Source of the DNA: a virus
Length of the DNA stretch: 33,790 bases
Direction: 5' to 3' (one strand)
Virus record (IMG/VR): IMGVR_UViG_3300026116_000074
Location: 1 to 33,790 of that record
Shown: piece after piece, positions 10,923 through 20,734 of the stretch
Layout of the letters: the number at the start of each line of letters is the position of its first letter
How positions within the stretch are numbered: the first letter of the stretch is position 1
Notes under the pieces: generated by a model
Seen by the model: only the letters and a program-made list of their open reading frames with translations
Database searches by the model: none
What the model was told of the DNA's origin: nothing
Program-made: the position numbers and the translations under genes

Positions 10923-11398
10923 TGGCTGAAAAAGTTGAACCTGCTGATGGAATTATGGCCCATCTTAAGCGAGCTTTTGACTGGCTCGATAAACTAGCAG
11001 ATGATGAAACTAAAGCTGCACTTATGGAGCGAGTTTTTGAATTTCTCGAAGACAAGCTCATTGATGGATATGATGTTCAGCTAGTTCCAGACCCTAAAAG
11101 TAATCTTCAGGAGATGAAGCCTGGGTTTAACCTCAATGCCATTATCCGCGATATTGGTTCATCTAAGCGTATGCGAATGGATGAAGCCGACGCGGTTAGG
11201 CTACAGGAACGGCAAGGCACGCCACAGGAAGAAATCAATCTTAACACTGCAACTGCACGCGATGTTGCTCAGCTAGTAGTGGATCGTGCAGTTATTCAGA
11301 GTGATTTTGTTAAAAACACTCTGGTGGACGCACTAACTGTCGGACTTAACATTCTTATCCCTGATCCCGCCGAATGGCAGAGGAGCCGTTCCGAGTGA
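10922..11398 (+). CDS. Hypothetical protein between terminase and portal (158 aa)
   Basis: Not recognised. Predicted mostly helical and charged, with an amphipathic N-terminus (HLKRAFDWLDKLADDE) and an acidic middle. ATG at 10922 overlaps the terminase stop (TAATG), and the end overlaps the next start by 4 nt (GTGA). Position suggests a head-assembly or packaging accessory. One 8-mer motif at 11221 is read as TPQEE. Confidence 0.7.
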   Translation: MAEKVEPADGIMAHLKRAFDWLDKLADDETKAALMERVFEFLEDKLIDGYDVQLVPDPKSNLQEMKPGFNLNAIIRDIGSSKRMRMDEADAVRLQERQGTPQEEINLNTATARDVAQLVVDRAVIQSDFVKNTLVDALTVGLNILIPDPAEWQRSRSE

Positions 11399-11937
11399 TT
11401 AACATGCAGCCGGGCGGAAGATTTAACGTCTCTAAAACCCCTTCCGCACTTCCGTCAAAATGCGTTGTTTGTGGTGCATGGGGTGGAGACGGTAGGGACT
11501 TCGTAGATTTCGGCATGGACATTGATTTCTACGGTGCTATTTACTTCTGCTCGGTCTGCCTTACTGAATGTTGCAATAAGCTCGGTTACATTAGCCCAGA
11601 CCAGTGGCAGTCAGTTAACACAATGAATGACGAGCTTATTCGTCGCATTCAAATTCTAGAGGCTGATAATGTTAGTCTACGAACTGCTCTTGTTGCTACT
11701 GATTTTCTGCGCGGCGGCTACAGTGATGATTCTCTTGTGGCGAATGAGCAGAAGTCAGATAGTTCTGATGAAGGAATCTCACCAGAACCAGATCTATTTC
11801 ATGGAAAGGACAATAAGCGAACGGAATCAGACGATTCAGAATTTGATGGATCGTCTGATGAGCGAGGATACGAGAACGTACCGAGTTATGTCGGACGTGA
11901 CAGCGAAAACCTCGGCGGGTTCGGTTTCGAACTCTGA
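11395..11937 (+). CDS. Zinc-ribbon-like hypothetical protein (180 aa)
   Basis: The N-terminal part contains two cysteine knuckles, CVVCGAWG and CSVCLTECC, separated by ~35 residues, a good pattern for one treble-clef or ribbon zinc site. A short coiled-coil-like helix (DELIRRIQILEAD) follows, then an acidic, Ser/Asp-rich tail of low complexity that coincides with the out-of-frame overlap with the next gene. GTG at 11395 is chosen: AGAGGAG lies about nine bases upstream and the codon makes a GTGA overlap with the previous stop. The tail (from 11669) may exist mainly because the second frame is also coding. Confidence 0.6.
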   Translation: MINMQPGGRFNVSKTPSALPSKCVVCGAWGGDGRDFVDFGMDIDFYGAIYFCSVCLTECCNKLGYISPDQWQSVNTMNDELIRRIQILEADNVSLRTALVATDFLRGGYSDDSLVANEQKSDSSDEGISPEPDLFHGKDNKRTESDDSEFDGSSDERGYENVPSYVGRDSENLGGFGFEL

Positions 11938-12094
11938 CGTTGCTTATGTTTCAATGAGTGACGAATCAGAGTTGTCACGAATGATGGCAATGCAGCCTGG
12001 CATTGGTGATGCCATTTATGATGATGAAACTCTGAAATTTGCTGCGGACATGGGTATTATCACAGAAGTGATTAACAATGGTGGTCCGTCATGA
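11669..12094 (+). CDS. Membrane-anchored coiled-coil protein in overlapping frame (141 aa)
   Basis: Starts with ATG seven bases after AGAGG, inside the preceding gene and in the +1 frame; 269 bases are shared. Residues ~3-24 are a clear transmembrane helix (ELLLLLLIFCAAATVMIL), followed by a positive Arg/Ser stretch and a coiled-coil-like helix (~35-65). The C-terminal part, after the overlap, is acidic and ends four bases into the portal gene (ATGA). Inverse layouts of this kind are known for Rz/Rz1 spanin pairs, but those are Gram-negative systems and no lipobox is visible here. A membrane-tethered virion or lysis accessory is possible. Confidence 0.65.
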   Translation: MLVYELLLLLLIFCAAATVMILLWRMSRSQIVLMKESHQNQIYFMERTISERNQTIQNLMDRLMSEDTRTYRVMSDVTAKTSAGSVSNSDVAYVSMSDESELSRMMAMQPGIGDAIYDDETLKFAADMGIITEVINNGGPS

Positions 12095-14133
12095 GCCTTA
12101 TGGATTCGCTAACTTCTCTGCCACAGATGGAGATGTTTAGTGGTAAGTCCAAAGCATCTCGCGACCAAATCAAAAAGTACACGGTTTGGGCACACGATAT
12201 GCAATCGAGCATCAAAATGGCTCGTGCAAATATCGAACGTAATTGGTACCTTAATCTTTGCTTTTACTTTGGTCGTCAGTATGTTGTTTATAGACAGAAC
12301 TCTGGCCAAATTATTGGAACTACAGGAGGTCTTATCGTCCCTCCTGCTCCTTACTATGTTTCCCGACCAGTAATCAACAAAATTCGACCAATTATCCGTA
12401 CTGAGATTTCTAAACTGACATCACAGAAGCCTAGTGCTTATGTAGTGCCTGCTAGTTCTGAAGATAAAGATTTGTTCGCTGCCCAAGCAGGCGAGCAAAT
12501 TTGGGATAGCATTTACCGACAGTACAAGTTGCATACTGTTTTTAAGCGCGCAGTGTGGTGGAATCAGACTTGCGGTAATGGCTTTATTAAAGCCTATTGG
12601 GACGCGGACCAGGTCGACTACACTACAAATCCGCCACAGCAGGGCAAATTCTGCTTCTCACCAGAAACGCCGTTTCATATTTTTGTGCCTGATTTTCGTG
12701 AGCAGGAACTAGAGAATCAGCCGTTTGTCATTCACGCACAGCTGAGATCTAAGAATTGGGTTAAAGTCAATTATCCGGGCGTTGATTATAACAATGTAGC
12801 CGGAGCAGAAGAAATTCTGGAAGATACTTGGCTCAATTTGGTTGGCGCCACAGGGGTTAAAGGTCATGAACAAGTTCTAATCCTTGAATGCTGGGTTAAA
12901 CCGGGACATGATCCTGATTTTCCCGAAGGCGCTATGTTTACTGTTATTGGTGATAATGTTGTTCAAAGTTTCGACACTTGGCCTTATATACACAGGAATT
13001 ATCCTTTTGTTAAGCTTGATCATATTGAAAGCGGTAAGTTCTATAGTGATAGCACTATCGTCGATCTGATTCCTCTACAGAAAGAACTTAATCGCACACG
13101 CGGCCAAATCATTGAAGCTAAAAACCGAATGGCTAAGCCTAAGCTTTTGGCTGAGCGCGGTTCTGTTGTTCCACAGCAAATTACTTCTGAGCCTGGCCAG
13201 GTTGTTGAGTACGAGCAGGGTTTTAACCCCCCTGTGGCGCTAAAAATGGAGCCGCTTCCATCTTACGTCACTGAGGAACTAGAGCGCATTAATGCTGACA
13301 TGAATGACATTTCAGGTCAGCATGAGATTTCGCGCGGTCAAAACCCTACAGGTGTTACAGCTGCAACTGCTATCAGTTATTTGCAGGAACAGGACGACAC
13401 TAAGCTAGCTTCAACATTTAGTTCCATTGAATCAGCTTACGAAAAGATTGCATTTCTGACACTGTCTTATGTTCAGCAGTATTGGAATGTTGAACGCACA
13501 GTTAAAATTGTCGGCAATGACGCTAACTTTGATGCAATGAGCTTTAAAGGCTCAGACCTTGCTGGTAACACTGATATTCGTATTGAAGGAGGCTCAGCAC
13601 TTCCAACTTCTCGTGCTGCTAAGCAGGCATTCATTATGGATCTTATGAAAATGGGATTCATTGATCCTGCTAAGGGTCTGGAAGTTATGGAAATTGGCGG
13701 ACTTCAGAAGATTTATGAGTCAGTACAGCAAGATGTGCGTCAATCCCAGCGTGAAAATCTGAAAATGGCTGCTGTTACTCCTGACATAATGATGCAGTAC
13801 AGCCAGCAAGTTGCTATGCAACCGCCACAGATAGACAAAAATACAGGAATGCCTATTCCTCCTCCTCTAGTTGTTCCTGTCAATACGTGGGACAATCATC
13901 AAATGCACGTTGAGATTCACAATCGCTATCGAAAGTCACAAGCTTTTGATATGCTTACTCCAGAGGCAAAAGCTCTATTTGAATCTCATGTCAATGCTCA
14001 CCAGCAAGCAATGGCAATTCAGGCATTCCAACAAATGCAAATGGCCGGAGGAATGCAGCAACCCCCTGTGGCGGATTCTCAGTCAGCCACTCCCCCGCCC
14101 TCGGAAGGAATGAATCCAAATGCCCCAGCCTAA
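12091..14133 (+). CDS. Portal protein (680 aa)
   Basis: The dodecameric ring through which DNA enters and leaves the capsid, and the platform for the tail adaptor. Identification rests on length, order (terminase, portal, scaffold, capsid) and characteristic segments: an N-terminal helical region with a basic stretch (RPVINKIRPIIRTEISKL), a helical stem region (IPLQKELNRTRGQIIEAKNRM split by Ala and Arg, about residues 325-345), and a Gln/Pro/Met-rich C-terminal extension. It overlaps the preceding gene by ATGA and the next by 14 bases. Three exact motif copies (12847, 13230, 14064) are read as ATG, PVA and PVA peptides. Confidence 0.85.
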   Translation: MSLMDSLTSLPQMEMFSGKSKASRDQIKKYTVWAHDMQSSIKMARANIERNWYLNLCFYFGRQYVVYRQNSGQIIGTTGGLIVPPAPYYVSRPVINKIRPIIRTEISKLTSQKPSAYVVPASSEDKDLFAAQAGEQIWDSIYRQYKLHTVFKRAVWWNQTCGNGFIKAYWDADQVDYTTNPPQQGKFCFSPETPFHIFVPDFREQELENQPFVIHAQLRSKNWVKVNYPGVDYNNVAGAEEILEDTWLNLVGATGVKGHEQVLILECWVKPGHDPDFPEGAMFTVIGDNVVQSFDTWPYIHRNYPFVKLDHIESGKFYSDSTIVDLIPLQKELNRTRGQIIEAKNRMAKPKLLAERGSVVPQQITSEPGQVVEYEQGFNPPVALKMEPLPSYVTEELERINADMNDISGQHEISRGQNPTGVTAATAISYLQEQDDTKLASTFSSIESAYEKIAFLTLSYVQQYWNVERTVKIVGNDANFDAMSFKGSDLAGNTDIRIEGGSALPTSRAAKQAFIMDLMKMGFIDPAKGLEVMEIGGLQKIYESVQQDVRQSQRENLKMAAVTPDIMMQYSQQVAMQPPQIDKNTGMPIPPPLVVPVNTWDNHQMHVEIHNRYRKSQAFDMLTPEAKALFESHVNAHQQAMAIQAFQQMQMAGGMQQPPVADSQSATPPPSEGMNPNAPA

Positions 14134-14623
14134 TCAAATTTCACCGCCAAATAAAGAATTTACAAACCGCAATCGCTCGGCGACTACTTCCACAGCTAGT
14201 CCCCTAACTAATGACGTCGATTATGATAGCATTTCTAATATTGACGCTCGTCTTGCTGCTATTAATCTTGGGAAGCTAGCAACTGCTGTAGCCACAGGGA
14301 GCACGACTACTGCGGTTATTAACAGCAACGAAGCATTTAGAGTTCCCAACGGTTCTCTTATTGAAATTCGAGACAGTTCTAATGCGGTTAAGTCATCTGG
14401 CTCAGGCAAAACTGTTACTGCCGTAGATGCTGACACGCCAAGTGTTGGCCTCACGCGTATTACATTTACGACTGCTGCTGCAGGAAACGTGGTTGCCGGA
14501 GATTATATTGCTCTTACTACTAAGCCATTTGGTGGGAGCTACGATAGTACTCAGCTTTCGAAAATGACTGTTAACGATAAGCTTTTTGCTCTTCGCAAGG
14601 CTGATGATTCTGCTACATTCTAA
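14120..14623 (+). CDS. Decoration-like protein sharing a domain with the major capsid protein (167 aa)
   Basis: Residues ~52-134 form a beta-rich domain that matches a region inserted in the major capsid protein (its residues ~141-222): both have the GSTTT, DSS-x-A-x-K, ITFT-x-AA-x-G and GDY steps in the same order and spacing. The first ~50 residues are a polar tail, possibly for capsid attachment. A capsid decoration or stabilising protein is therefore likely, but this is inference from the shared domain and position. The start lies within the end of the portal gene, about ten bases after a GGAAGGA. An exact motif copy (14291) is read as ATG. Confidence 0.65.
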   Translation: MPQPNQISPPNKEFTNRNRSATTSTASPLTNDVDYDSISNIDARLAAINLGKLATAVATGSTTTAVINSNEAFRVPNGSLIEIRDSSNAVKSSGSGKTVTAVDADTPSVGLTRITFTTAAAGNVVAGDYIALTTKPFGGSYDSTQLSKMTVNDKLFALRKADDSATF

Positions 14624-14625
14624 GG

Positions 14626-14725
14626 CAGCTTGACAGCCTGAGTTAGTATTTTAATCAAGAACCGCCTAGGGCCGAAAGGTACGGGCGATTAGCGGCTAGG
14701 GCCTTAAGGGGTACGGCGCAAATGA
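14626..14725 (+). promoter_or_regulatory. Intergenic segment with TTGACA box and 30-bp imperfect repeat
   Basis: The 98-nt gap before the scaffold gene starts with CAGCTTGACAGC (14626-14637), a 12-mer repeated exactly at 28517-28528 before the WhiB gene. No good -10 follows: TAATCA after 16 bases is weak. Further on, two 30-base units (14666 and 14696) share CTAGGGCC and a TACGG step, the second running into the start codon at 14722. A promoter or translational control element is plausible. Confidence 0.35.
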
Positions 14726-15507
14726 CAGAAGGTGCACCGGAAATTCAGCCACAGCAGGATGCTAATCCTAGTGGTGGTATTAATCCGGCGTGGAATGATG
14801 CTCTTAATGACATTCCTAGAGAGTATCATGAAAAAGTGATCCCGCACTTCAAAAACTGGGATACTGGGTTTAATACTCAGCTTCAGAAAGTGCACTCTCA
14901 GTACGAGGCTTACAAGCCGTACGAACCCTTTGTGCAGAATCAAGTTCCTTTTGAGGAAGTGCAACAGGGTTACGGACTTCTTCGGGCCATTTATGAAAAC
15001 CCGCAAGGAGTGATTGGCGCCATCCAGCAGGCGTTTAATCTAGGTGAGCCCGTAGATGACCAGGGTGTAGCTGAAGAAATCCCTGACGAAACTGCTTATG
15101 CGCAACTTCCGCCTAATGTAGTTGCACAATTGCAGCGTCAGGACCAAATGCTTAACACCATGGCGCAGATCATGGCTAAGGAACGTGAGCAGCAACTTGC
15201 TTATAATGAAGGCATTAAGCTAGATAAGTATTTGGCTAGTCTTCACGAACAGCATGGTGATTTCGATGAGGGCATAGTTCTTCAGTTGGCTGCACAGATG
15301 GATGGCAACATTGATAGTGCTTTTCAAGCATATCAGAATGCTATTCAGCAAGAAGTGTCACGAAGAAATTCCCCTGTGGCCCCGCGTTTGATTAGTCCTG
15401 GCGGTTCTGCGCCCAGCAATGCAATTGATCCCCGCAAGCTTAATTCTCGTCAGACTAAAGATCTGATTGTGGATATGCTTAAGGCAGCTCAGTCTGCTAA
15501 GGGGTAG
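14722..15507 (+). CDS. Capsid scaffold protein (261 aa)
   Basis: Directly upstream of the major capsid gene, of typical scaffold length and composition: acidic, Gln/Ala-rich, largely helical, with a coiled-coil-like centre (~residues 135-165) and a short basic helical C-terminus (DPRKLNSRQTKDLIVDML) of the kind that contacts the capsid shell. Scaffold proteins direct correct prohead assembly and then leave. No protease motif is seen, so cleavage of the scaffold is not indicated. A motif copy (15372) is read as SPVAPR between the coiled coil and the C-terminal helix, a likely flexible linker. Confidence 0.75.
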   Translation: MTEGAPEIQPQQDANPSGGINPAWNDALNDIPREYHEKVIPHFKNWDTGFNTQLQKVHSQYEAYKPYEPFVQNQVPFEEVQQGYGLLRAIYENPQGVIGAIQQAFNLGEPVDDQGVAEEIPDETAYAQLPPNVVAQLQRQDQMLNTMAQIMAKEREQQLAYNEGIKLDKYLASLHEQHGDFDEGIVLQLAAQMDGNIDSAFQAYQNAIQQEVSRRNSPVAPRLISPGGSAPSNAIDPRKLNSRQTKDLIVDMLKAAQSAKG

Positions 15508-15535
15508 CCCCTTAAAGCATTAGTTGGGAGTTATT

Positions 15536-16780
15536 GTGGCTAGCTCAGTCACTATGACCACTGTTGACAACATTCTTAAAGAAGTTTACGAGGGTCAGCT
15601 TAATGACCAGCTTCAGAGTGAAGCTATTACCATTAAGCGAATTGAATCGACATCTGAAGGCGTAACTGAAGATGTCGGCGGTAAGTATGTGCGATTCCCT
15701 ATCCGTGTTAAGCGTAATCACGGTATTGGTGCTCGTAATGAAGGCGAAGTTCTGCCGGACGGACTTTCTCAGGGTTACGCATCTGCTCAGCTTAACCTGA
15801 GCTATCAGTACGGTACTGTTAAGCTTAATGGTCAGGTTTTTGAACTGGCTGAGCGTAACTTCCAGGCTTTTGCTTCTGCACTTCAGGAAGAACTCGACGG
15901 ACTTAAAGAAGGTCTTCGTAAAGATACTAACCGTCAGACTTATGGAACCGGCAAGGGTACTCTTTGTACTGCTACCGCTTCCGGTTCTACTACAACACTA
16001 GTCACTACTGATGCCGATGCCATTTATATGGAAGTCGGTATGGTTTGTGACTTGTACGACTCTAGCGATGCGCTTAAAACTACTGGTAACGCAAAAGAAA
16101 TCACGAACATTTCTTCGTCTGGTGGAAACACGACGATTACGTTCACTCCTGCGGCTGGTGGTTCTACTGCATCTGGCGACTATCTTGTTCGAGATGACAA
16201 CCTTAATAAGGAAATTCTCGGATTCGGTAAAATCGTCAATAACACGGGTTCGCTTTATGGAATCGACCCTGCTACTCAGCCAGTGTGGAAGTCAGAAATG
16301 GATGCGCCAGTATCTGCGCGTAACATTTCTGAAGGCTCTATGATTAGCATGATTGACCGAGTTCGTAAAAATGGCGGTCGCACGACTGTTATGTTCACGA
16401 CTCTCGGTGTTCGTCGTGCTTACTTCCAGCTTCTTACGCAGCAGCGTCGTTATAACAACACTCAGCAGTTTGAGGGTGGGTTCAACGGGCTCGCATTTAC
16501 CACTGACTGGGGCGACATTCCCCTAGTGACTGACTTTGATTGTCCGTCAGGCACTATCTGGTTTATGAACGAGAAGCAGCTGAAGATTTACCACACTGGG
16601 CAGTGGTCGTGGATGAACCGAGACGGCTCTAACTGGACTCGCGTTTATAATGTCCCGTCTGGTGGCGGTAATGCTGGATTCGTAGATGCCTACATGGCGA
16701 CGATGTTCCGTTATTGGCAGATCGGAACTAAGCGCCGTAACTCGCACGGCAAGATGACTAACATCAACGAAGCGAGCTAA
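15536..16780 (+). CDS. Major capsid protein, HK97-like, with inserted beta domain (414 aa)
   Basis: Forms the icosahedral shell. Placement after the scaffold, length and overall pattern fit an HK97-fold capsid: N-terminal helical arm, a beta-rich E-loop-like region (YVRFPIRVKRNHG), spine helix (~105-130), and a C-terminal A-domain with Trp/Gly segments (YHTGQWSWMNRDGS). Residues ~141-222 are a Thr/Ser/Gly-rich domain homologous to the product of 14120-14623, presumably a surface-exposed insertion. GTG at 15536 is chosen because GGGAG lies six bases upstream. A strong terminator follows at 16798. No copy of the dispersed motif lies in this gene. Confidence 0.85.
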   Translation: MASSVTMTTVDNILKEVYEGQLNDQLQSEAITIKRIESTSEGVTEDVGGKYVRFPIRVKRNHGIGARNEGEVLPDGLSQGYASAQLNLSYQYGTVKLNGQVFELAERNFQAFASALQEELDGLKEGLRKDTNRQTYGTGKGTLCTATASGSTTTLVTTDADAIYMEVGMVCDLYDSSDALKTTGNAKEITNISSSGGNTTITFTPAAGGSTASGDYLVRDDNLNKEILGFGKIVNNTGSLYGIDPATQPVWKSEMDAPVSARNISEGSMISMIDRVRKNGGRTTVMFTTLGVRRAYFQLLTQQRRYNNTQQFEGGFNGLAFTTDWGDIPLVTDFDCPSGTIWFMNEKQLKIYHTGQWSWMNRDGSNWTRVYNVPSGGGNAGFVDAYMATMFRYWQIGTKRRNSHGKMTNINEAS

Positions 16781-17387: not shown

Positions 17388-17860
17388 TGGATCTGCGAAA
17401 CAGTGCTCTATTGACAGAAACTGGCCATTTTGTAAGTGAAAATTGGTCACATCTTAATGAATTGCTTCAGGGTTTTGACCCTGGCCTAGAACTTCACTGG
17501 ATCCCTACGGATAAGCGGATGACGGATGAGAAGTATCCTTACCGCATTATACATCGCCCGCCTGCAACTTCGAGTATGGCACCTTACATTGTCATGTACT
17601 GTAGAGAAACTGATTCGCCACAGGAGGTCTTTGCAAAAATCATTGCTGGCGACAATTGGAAGACTAATGTTCAAGCACAATTGGACGCTCGCATTACAGC
17701 ACAGCGGCTATTCGAGAGGAAAAAGCAGCTTGACGAAATGGCAGAAGCTGCTGATCTTGCTCATTTCCTGCTCGTACGTGGTGGCAATTACACTACTATT
17801 CGTCACCCAAAAACTAATGAACTAGTGAAATTCGATAGCCACAGGTTTAGGATGCGTTGA
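17387..17860 (+). CDS. Hypothetical protein (157 aa)
   Basis: Not recognised. The first ~80 residues look globular with several prolines and aromatic residues (ELHWIPTDKR, YPYRIIHRPP). The C-terminal half is a long charged helix (ITAQRLFERKKQLDEMAEAAD) followed by a basic end (RHPKTNELVKFDSHRFRMR). It starts with a TAATG overlap and ends one base into the amidase start. Between capsid and tail genes, it might be a head-completion or chaperone protein. 8-mer motif copies at 17617 and 17838. Confidence 0.7.
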   Translation: MDLRNSALLTETGHFVSENWSHLNELLQGFDPGLELHWIPTDKRMTDEKYPYRIIHRPPATSSMAPYIVMYCRETDSPQEVFAKIIAGDNWKTNVQAQLDARITAQRLFERKKQLDEMAEAADLAHFLLVRGGNYTTIRHPKTNELVKFDSHRFRMR

Positions 17861-18531
17861 TGTACGTAACTGTTCTCAGATCAGTTTTGGGTTGGCCTGA
17901 TACAAAGAACATCCCCAATGCTCCAACTAATAAGGGCATTGTGATTCACTACGATGGCGGCTCGCGAAATCTGACGGCCAAAGAGCACCCAGCCTGTCTA
18001 GATTACTGGAAATGGTGTAGAGACTTTCACATCAAAACCAATGGCTGGAAAGATATAGGCTACTCTTACGGAATTTGCCCTCACGGCGTTCTTTTTGAAG
18101 GACGTGGATTCGGCAGAGAGCAGGCCGCTCAACCTGGCGGAAATAGGGACTGGCTTAGCGTTACACTAATGCTAGGTAAAAAAGAATCGCCAACTGAAAA
18201 GCAAATCGCCGCCTTTAATGAGTTTAGAACTAAACTAGTTCGTACTAAGAAAATCGCCGAAGCTGTCTCTTTTCACTCAATGTTCTTTGCCACAGATTGC
18301 CCTGGAGACATTGTTAGAAATAAAATCGCTCACGGTGAGTTTTCTAAGCTTCTCCCTGTGGCTGACGCCGACCAATATTGGTCGGCGTTGCAAGAACTTC
18401 CGTTGCTAAACGATCTTGGCCCTAACGCAAAAGCTGTTGTAAAATCAATGCAGCGTGCGCTAAATCTTGACGATGATGGCGATATTGGTCCTAATACATG
18501 GTCGGCAATCATTAAGAAGGTTCTTAAATGA
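17860..18531 (+). CDS. Endolysin: N-acetylmuramoyl-L-alanine amidase with PG-binding domain (223 aa)
   Basis: Cleaves the bond between muramic acid and L-alanine in host peptidoglycan to release progeny. The N-terminal amidase_2-type domain shows the expected zinc ligands: VIHYDGG (His30), SFHS (His139) and DCPG (Cys147), plus the GYSYGICPHGVLFEGRG strand around residues 67-83. Residues ~184-223 form a peptidoglycan-binding repeat (VKSMQRALNLDDDGDIG). There is no signal peptide, so a holin or other export route is needed. ATG at 17860 is preceded by AGGATG and overlaps the previous stop by one base. It sits inside the virion operon, so a virion-associated role is also possible. A motif copy (18354) falls in the linker (LPVAD). 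Confidence 0.92.
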   Translation: MYVTVLRSVLGWPDTKNIPNAPTNKGIVIHYDGGSRNLTAKEHPACLDYWKWCRDFHIKTNGWKDIGYSYGICPHGVLFEGRGFGREQAAQPGGNRDWLSVTLMLGKKESPTEKQIAAFNEFRTKLVRTKKIAEAVSFHSMFFATDCPGDIVRNKIAHGEFSKLLPVADADQYWSALQELPLLNDLGPNAKAVVKSMQRALNLDDDGDIGPNTWSAIIKKVLK

Positions 18532-19187
18532 ATCTTGGTGATGTAAGGACCAGAGTTAAACGCCAATTTGGTGATGAATCTCAAGTCCAAATTAATGATA
18601 GCGATATTACTCGGTGGGCTAATGATGCTCAACGGTTTATTGTTATGCAAAGTGAAGGACTACTACAAAAATCTGCCACAGCGGACTTAGTAGCTAGCCA
18701 ACAGGAATACAGTGTACCGAGTGATTTGCTAATTCTGCGTTCAATTAGTACACGTCTAACAACTTCGACACCTTACTTTCCACTAATTGGTCTTTCGCCA
18801 CAGGAATTTGACCAAAAGATTGGTGATTGGGAAGGTGGCTCAGGCGTTAATAGCGGTTATGCAGGTTACTACCACATTTACGGCGCATTAATCAAGCTGT
18901 GGCCTATTCCTGTGGCTAGTCTTACTGCTGGTTTGAAAATCTACTACAGTAGACTTCCAACTGACGTTGCTGTTGACGCTGATGTTCTTGATTTGCCTAT
19001 CACTTATCATAGTGCTGTAGTGAATTATTGCTTGCAGCAGGCTTACGAACTTGATGATGCATCATGGGATGCGGCAAAAGTTAAAAGTGATCAGGTATTG
19101 ACTGACATTCATTTTAATAAGGGGCGTGAAAACAGGAGTCCTTCAGGCACTTATGGTCGCATTACTGTACTGCCGGAGGATATGTAA
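18528..19187 (+). CDS. Tail adaptor, T7 gp11-like (219 aa)
   Basis: Resembles the tail tubular protein A/adaptor of podoviruses, which forms a ring between the portal and the nozzle. Typical features are the N-terminal helix (DVRTRVKRQFGD) with IxRWANDAQRFI, the YSVPSDLLILRSI strand, and a C-terminal helical part with HSAVVNYCLQQAYELD. Length is close to T7 gp11 (about 200 aa). It overlaps the amidase stop by ATGA and the nozzle start by TAATG. Order adaptor-nozzle matches T7-like phages. 8-mer motif copies at 18797 and 18908 are read in different frames. Confidence 0.85.
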   Translation: MNLGDVRTRVKRQFGDESQVQINDSDITRWANDAQRFIVMQSEGLLQKSATADLVASQQEYSVPSDLLILRSISTRLTTSTPYFPLIGLSPQEFDQKIGDWEGGSGVNSGYAGYYHIYGALIKLWPIPVASLTAGLKIYYSRLPTDVAVDADVLDLPITYHSAVVNYCLQQAYELDDASWDAAKVKSDQVLTDIHFNKGRENRSPSGTYGRITVLPEDM

Positions 19188-20734
19188 TGCCTGCTGACGC
19201 CATTGTTATGGGACCATTTGCAGGAGGTCTCAATAATGTCTCAGACCCGTCTGCTATTGCTGATGATGAACTTCAAGAGTGCGTTAATTTTGAGCTCGAT
19301 CTTAATGGCACCCTTGTGGCTCGTCCTCCTTTTGTTGCTAGTGCTGGGCCTGGTGCATCCCATGTTCGGGCTATTGGTAATTGTATCTTCGGTAATGAGT
19401 CTTACGTCATTTTTGCTAATGCTGCAGGCGTTTGGGCGCAAAAACTGAGTGACAGTTCGTTTGTCACAATCACTGCCACAGCTCCAAACCCACTTGTGGC
19501 TATTCAATACGCTGGCTTTTTGTGGATTATTCCTTCGCCTGGCTCTAGTGCTAACGGAGGTAAGTGGGACGGTACTACGTACACTGCTGTCTCTGCCATA
19601 CCTAAAGCAGGATCAGCAATCATTTATAAAGAGCGCATGTATCTTGCACCAGGATATTTTGCGACGACTAATACGTCCCGTCTACTTTATTCTGCTATTG
19701 GAGATCCTACTTCTTGGACTACTGGTAGTGATTTCTTTGACGTCAGTCCTGGTGACGGGCAAAAGCTAATAGACCTGGTCATTTACAACAACAACTTGAT
19801 TCTTTTCAAGGATGACTCAACGTATGCATTGAGCTATTCTACTGCGCCAGCAGATGCTACGTTGATTAAAATCAACAACACAATCGGAGTATCTCGCCAT
19901 TATTGCATGGTACCTTATGAGCGAACTATTTATGTTCTTCACGAGGGACGCGCATACGAGATCGTTAATTACAACTGGAATGACATCTCTCTCAAAGTGT
20001 TCTTTACGGCCGCTAGTTTGACGCCAGGAACATTCACAGAAGATATGTGTATGAGTCTGATTGGAGACAGGCTACTTATACGACACTTTGAAAATGTGTG
20101 GGTTTATGGGATCAAAACTAGAACCTGGTCACAATGGACATCGGCCGATTCATCGCTCAACAATCTTGGTCCTTTTGTTGAGCACCCTAATGTTTTGTCT
20201 TCTCTACCATTTCGTGTATATCGCGCTGGCATAAGTCTTACTAGTCCGACTCATATTGTCAGCATTAAGGAATTTGCAGACGCCACTACACTAGAGAAGA
20301 ATTCATCAGCGGCCAACGTTACAATTACTAGTTATGCTACAAGTAAAAACTACGACTTTGGAGTGAGTTACGTTTATAAGCGACTCAGTTATTGGGGCGC
20401 AGATGTACTCACTACTAATTCAGTAGTATGCACAGCTAGCCCAATAACTTTTGGTGTTACTGTTGCGTGGGGAGATTTGGCGCTTAGTACATGGGATAGC
20501 TTGGGTTCTTGGGCTTCACCCCTTACAGTGAATCCAGACGTCACGACCACCGTAGCAGGAGCCACAGGCACCCTTAGACGGTTCATTAAGGCTAAGACAG
20601 GTCTTAGGTTTCGTCAGATCAAATTCAAAGTGCAGATGACTACAGGAGGTTCTACGACAGACGGACCTTGCAAACTGTATTCAATGACAGCTTTTGCAGC
20701 GTCCAAGCAATTTACTTCAAAGAGCGTGAGTTAA
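19187..20734 (+). CDS. Tail nozzle, T7 gp12-like (515 aa)
   Basis: Follows the adaptor as in T7-like phages. The N-terminus (GPFAGGLNNVSDPSAIADDE ... ECVNFELD) is the typical opening of tail tubular B/nozzle proteins, followed by repeated beta blades (GNESYVIFAN, AGFLWIIPSPG, NNLILFKDDSTYAL, YERTIYVLHEG) consistent with a propeller. It is shorter than T7 gp12 (about 790 aa), as in other small podoviruses. It forms the channel through which DNA is ejected. Starts and ends with TAATG overlaps. The gene has only 7- and 8-mer motif partial matches. Confidence 0.85.
   Translation: MPADAIVMGPFAGGLNNVSDPSAIADDELQECVNFELDLNGTLVARPPFVASAGPGASHVRAIGNCIFGNESYVIFANAAGVWAQKLSDSSFVTITATAPNPLVAIQYAGFLWIIPSPGSSANGGKWDGTTYTAVSAIPKAGSAIIYKERMYLAPGYFATTNTSRLLYSAIGDPTSWTTGSDFFDVSPGDGQKLIDLVIYNNNLILFKDDSTYALSYSTAPADATLIKINNTIGVSRHYCMVPYERTIYVLHEGRAYEIVNYNWNDISLKVFFTAASLTPGTFTEDMCMSLIGDRLLIRHFENVWVYGIKTRTWSQWTSADSSLNNLGPFVEHPNVLSSLPFRVYRAGISLTSPTHIVSIKEFADATTLEKNSSAANVTITSYATSKNYDFGVSYVYKRLSYWGADVLTTNSVVCTASPITFGVTVAWGDLALSTWDSLGSWASPLTVNPDVTTTVAGATGTLRRFIKAKTGLRFRQIKFKVQMTTGGSTTDGPCKLYSMTAFAASKQFTSKSVS

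Follow-up and report, generated by a model that had tools for sequence, protein, structure and literature searches.

Phage particles are known to carry accessory domains that have moved from one protein to another, usually with only a fold, the Ig-like one, in common. Ig-like accessory domains of tailed phages occur as insertions in coat proteins, in decoration proteins and in tail proteins, and are regarded as modules of the particle surface (Fraser et al. 2006, as cited in PMC7602432 and PMC7385642). On phi29, the coat-protein domain BIG2 and the head fibre, gp8.5, work on the same capsid surface and touch (PMC7602432). SU10 has a gene for a candidate minor capsid protein of Ig-like type, gp10, which is absent from its capsid map (PMC9509320). 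The closest described relatives of the major capsid protein (MCP) analysed here, at 39–44% identity, are those of Arthrobacter phage Jasmine and its kin, Microbacterium phage Shocker, Cellulosimicrobium phage DS1 and the metagenomic podophage ctEqG8; Jasmine, a podovirus, has a head of 60 nm (PMC5513430). The window, which is the whole stretch of DNA analysed, is a linear IMG/VR virus record of 33,790 bases from an uncultured tailed phage. Within it, a small, barrel-like beta domain was matched in two places only, the MCP and a 167-aa protein encoded two genes upstream, here called the carrier. We consider it fairly probable that the carrier belongs to a small portal–scaffold protein family, that its insert came from the MCP insertion domain and that the insert serves as an accessory surface module.

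Head module of the window

The head module runs in the order portal, 167-aa carrier, probable scaffold and MCP, all on the plus strand. The portal protein (680 aa; 12091–14133) matched Pfam P22_portal (E 5e-24) and phrog_156 (E 2e-50), and its 3′ end overlaps by 14 nt the start of the carrier gene (14120–14623), which has a ribosome-binding site, GGAAGGA, just upstream. The carrier and MCP genes lie at the positions originally given for them and flank a 261-aa protein (14722–15507), a probable scaffold judged from its location between the portal region and the MCP, with a weak match to phrog_33339 (unknown function; E 5e-7). The N-terminal part of the carrier (residues 1–49; 14120–14266), delimited by its model and by a profile alignment of short family members to residues 5–49, is predicted to consist of a disordered tail and a helix at residues 36–47. 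It is followed by the inserted beta domain at what we call site B (residues 50–137; 14267–14530), delimited by excision scoring and by homology to the MCP insertion domain, and then by a C-terminal part (residues 138–167, YDSTQLSKMTVNDKLFALR...; 14531–14623), which was recognised by phmmer with residues 131–167 and is the best-conserved stretch of the family.

The MCP, 418 aa long from its listed TTG start (15524–16780), probably begins instead at the GTG at 15536, since GGGAG precedes this codon and the resulting start fits the relatives. The protein is an HK97-fold MCP of the SU10/phrog_14242 type, scoring 29.3 bits against SU10_MCP (cut-off 24.1) and E 4e-95 against phrog_14242, and its AF2 model (pLDDT 84) has the HK97 fold, with the capsids of cyanophage A-1(L), Pa223, SU10 and Mic1 as its best PDB matches (E down to 6e-12). 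The MCP insertion domain (residues 145–222, counted from the TTG; 15956–16189), delimited by BLASTP, the model and the relatives, directly follows the spine helix at residues 113–140 of the model. Further downstream lies a tail-nozzle-like structural protein assigned by profile to phrog_33544 (19187–20734, plus strand).

Several features around these genes were also recorded. Two plus-strand ORFs in different frames, 11374–11937 and 11669–12094, overlap by about 270 nt and encode a zinc-ribbon-like protein (CxxC...CxxC) and a membrane-anchored coiled-coil protein; the same pair precedes the portal gene in related contigs L078, L084, L091, L133 and L135, and the overlap seems to be conserved. 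The gap between the carrier and scaffold genes (14624–14721) contains an imperfect direct repeat (CTAGGGCC..AAGG..GTACGG), in place of which relatives (L013, L105 and L132) often have small basic ORFs, one or two in number. An amidase with a peptidoglycan-binding domain (17857–18531, plus strand) is encoded among the structural genes, as is the Jasmine amidase, and this placement suggests that it may act in entry rather than in lysis.

Homology of the two beta domains

The original prediction that the MCP and the 167-aa protein share a series of motifs in the same order was confirmed by alignment. BLASTP paired carrier residues 51–130 with MCP residues 145–221, with 34 of 80 positions identical (43%; 40 bits; E 8e-9), and both proteins contain, in common order, GSTTT, DSSNAVK or DSSDALK, ITFTTAAAG or ITFTPAAGG, and GDY. 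Both segments are rich in Thr, Ser, Ala and Gly, and the likeness might accordingly reflect convergence or a shared low-complexity composition rather than descent. However, the Smith-Waterman score of 155 stood far above 4000 shuffles (2000 composition-preserving and 2000 dipeptide-preserving; means 39 to 43, z 15–18), the best of which, at 81, reached only about half of it. The remaining window proteins scored 28–53 against the MCP, those likewise rich in Thr, Ser, Ala and Gly gave no match, and the profile matches span the full domain in order. Chance or composition was rejected on the shuffles, and we regard this origin as barely credible.

Profile searches, named at the outset among the possible refutations, likewise found a relation. 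The head-protein profile phrog_14242 matched carrier residues 38–127 at its insert positions 123–210 (E 8.8e-4), and hhalign of the MCP inserts with the carrier gave E 1.4e-9 at 45% identity. The predicted secondary structures also agreed: the AF2 models place strands at residues 146–149, 158–162, 174–178, 191–199, 202–208 and 220–223 of the MCP and at residues 52–58, 64–68, 80–84, 98–104, 111–116 and 129–132 of the carrier, with equal strand and helix order and a nearly constant offset. The carrier model, confident in the beta domain (about 90) and of low confidence at its ends, was computed from an alignment of MCP inserts and of carriers bearing the domain at another site only; mixed alignments of short and long carriers were misaligned. 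Sequence, profiles and predicted secondary structure thus support homology between the carrier domain and the MCP insertion domain. Between the two DNA segments, nucleotide similarity did not rise above chance, and the copies are therefore old; scanning viral contigs with each of the two proteins as a single sequence returned no matches.

Among viral structures, the carrier model matched a tail collar fibre protein best, then several tail fibres, with the Jasmine MCP in fourth place (E 2.3e-3), and the fibre matches suggest that the fold is widespread on phage particles. Against PDB structures, nothing fell below E 0.001, no decoration protein was among the listed matches, and none of the decoration-protein folds (beta-tulip, beta-tadpole, OB and Ig-like) was matched.

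The carrier family and the origin of its domain

Relatives comprised 80 contigs from an MCP alignment search of viral contigs, together with further close relatives from a second search. About 50 related contigs encode, at the same place in the order portal, small protein, scaffold and MCP, a protein of 60–110 aa that lacks the domain. These short proteins align to carrier residues 5–49 and 139–166 with nothing between; phmmer with residues 131–167 recovered them in more than 30 relatives, and the N-terminal part of the carrier (residues 5–49) matched the short-family profile with an hhalign E of 8e-14. Among all deletions tried around the insert, excision of residues 50–137 was the best, raising the short-family score from 60.5 to 79.7 bits and leaving a typical short family member. 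The window carrier has the other features of the family as well, namely its gene position between portal and scaffold and an N-terminal tail and helix followed by the motif YxxxxLxxMTxNDKxxAxR. Because short carriers are common in the relatives and excision restores one, the 167-aa protein is, on this sequence evidence, an older small carrier (family about 80 aa) with an in-frame insertion of about 88 aa between two helices. The original notion that the capsid domain is duplicated as a separate protein, or free form, did not hold on the same grounds; a free-standing domain protein was rejected, the domain being inserted in a conserved carrier that most relatives have without it. No Pfam family, PDB sequence, fold match or well-supported PHROG was found for the carrier family. 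A profile of the conserved end found the short carrier in phages DS1 and Shocker and no carrier in Jasmine, Casserole or ctEqG8, and no domain-bearing carrier was found in the isolates of the phage collection.

Other insertions were found among the relatives. In about 20 contigs, a related beta domain, profile-related to the MCP inserts at E 1e-12, occupies a different site in the carrier, before the conserved helix rather than after it as in the window. In L032 (4639–5124), the C-terminus of the small carrier bears a fused IPT/TIG domain (PF01833, E 1e-12). In L037 (4501–6285), the beta domain is inserted in the homologue of the window's tail-nozzle-like protein, which itself has no such insert. 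This nozzle-like protein is an insertion hotspot: in L019, L020, L023, L024, L031, L062 and L113 about 200 unrelated residues are inserted, in L037 the beta domain takes this place, and most relatives have no insert at all. A single domain thus recurs in the MCP, at two sites of the carrier and in the tail-nozzle-like protein; it has the look of a movable accessory module of virion proteins, and phages apparently copy such surface modules from one part of the particle to another.

The original prediction had left the direction of transfer open, allowing the domain to have entered the capsid protein or to have left it, and only the latter route fared well. The domain is present in all 88 of the MCP relatives aligned and, judged by this distribution, is ancestral in the MCP, whereas the window's carrier arrangement is so far a single case, the relatives having yielded only the other-site or the short form. 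Since every MCP relative has the domain and only the window's carrier has so far shown it at this position, movement likely ran from the MCP lineage to the carrier; the reverse is disfavoured and unlikely. The carrier domain scored 71 bits against the MCP insert of L105, 64–65 against those of L015–L017, 58 against that of L013 and 48 against that of its own MCP, compared with 23 bits against the other-site carrier domain. In a focused tree, it fell inside an MCP subclade with 97/89 support, beside L105, L015–L017 and L132 at 87/88. The donor phylogeny has only 88–95 columns, too few to point to one exact donor; the carrier domain has DSSxAxK in common with the window MCP, and shares a DTPxxG loop and a gap-free alignment with the L105 and L015–L017 inserts. 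In L132 (4489–5713), the MCP sequence passes from one reading frame to another immediately ahead of the insertion domain, through either a frameshift or an assembly error.

The trees favour, without proving, an insertion of its own at the window's site, with its source in the MCP-insert lineage; this is the best reading, and two other histories were weighed against it. Each protein could have acquired the domain on its own, out of a wider pool of beta domains found on phage surfaces, such as those of tail fibres, nozzles and spikes, with the MCP not the donor; the fibre proteins heading the structural matches and the nozzle-like protein of L037 fit such a pool, and an AU test that split all MCP inserts from the carrier domains did not reject it (p 0.18–0.36). 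This history is nonetheless unlikely, as the window's domain nests in the MCP subclade and scores far higher against the inserts of that clade than against the other-site domain. Alternatively, the two carrier sites could descend from one ancient insertion, after which the domain or the helix around it shifted, given that the same carrier and the same type of domain are involved and that forcing all carrier domains into one clade was not rejected either (AU p 0.18–0.29). We find a single event very unlikely, because the domain stands on opposite sides of the helix in the two forms, the other-site domains form their own clade, excluding the window's domain, with 100/99–100 support, and the window's nearest MCP relatives with a readable carrier (L013, L015, L016, L105 and L132) all have the short form. 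On the MCP-core tree, the other-site form has a patchy distribution with 7 changes, a pattern consistent with repeated loss or horizontal exchange.

Possible function and comparison with known systems

If the insertion indeed came from the MCP lineage, the beta domain would be a descendant of this phage group's MCP insertion domain, copied in frame between the helices of the carrier by illegitimate recombination. The carrier would then be a small protein of the virion, attached to the head, and its domain, exposed on the particle, may add contacts that contribute to capsid stability or to surface adhesion while being dispensable for the basic role of the carrier. We infer that the carrier sits on the head or capsid surface with its extra domains facing outward in the manner of Ig-like decorations (PMC7602432), because its gene lies in the head module, bulky domains are tolerated at three places and the kinds of domain accepted point the same way. 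The carrier might instead be an internal or assembly factor, such as a scaffold partner or a portal-associated or pilot protein, given that its gene is located between portal and scaffold and that neither a family nor a fold could be matched to the short form. Yet the bulky domains it accepts include an Ig-like one, IPT/TIG, of a kind usually displayed on the surface of phage particles (PMC7602432), and we regard an internal role as the less likely alternative, though one to be taken seriously. A broader reading, in which the MCP insert is a mobile module with at least two independent insertions into the head protein and one into the tail nozzle, and in which the carrier docks like-to-like on the MCP, is conceivable but doubtful.

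Relatives without the insertion provide a clear before-and-after contrast, the second insertion site is a near replicate, and donor, timing and docking thereby become testable. The analysis also defines an undescribed family of small head-region proteins, which could serve as a display platform.

Compared with the described systems, the window MCP shares the HK97 fold of the SU10 and cyanophage A-1(L)-type capsid proteins, together with a match to Pfam SU10_MCP. The gp10 of SU10 is Ig-like, whereas the window carrier had no relative in Pfam or PDB sequence searches, and the absence of gp10 from its capsid map is a warning for the surface reading of the carrier. MCPs of the phrog_14242 family, including those of Jasmine, Shocker and DS1, carry the same insertion domain as the window MCP, but DS1 and Shocker have the short carrier and the window a domain-bearing one. 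The arrangement resembles phi29 in pairing an accessory domain of the coat protein with a separate head protein; in phi29 gp8.5 and BIG2 touch, whereas in the window the MCP and the carrier share the domain itself. With the Ig-like domains, the window domain has in common that one type of domain occurs across several virion proteins, and they are a known precedent for its mobility. It differs from them in having no recognised Ig-like fold, no Pfam Ig-like match and no Pfam family of its own, its weak structural matches being to other small beta barrels and fibres, and in that recognisable sequence identity ties the MCP's own insertion domain to the domain of a small neighbouring head-region protein of the same phage.
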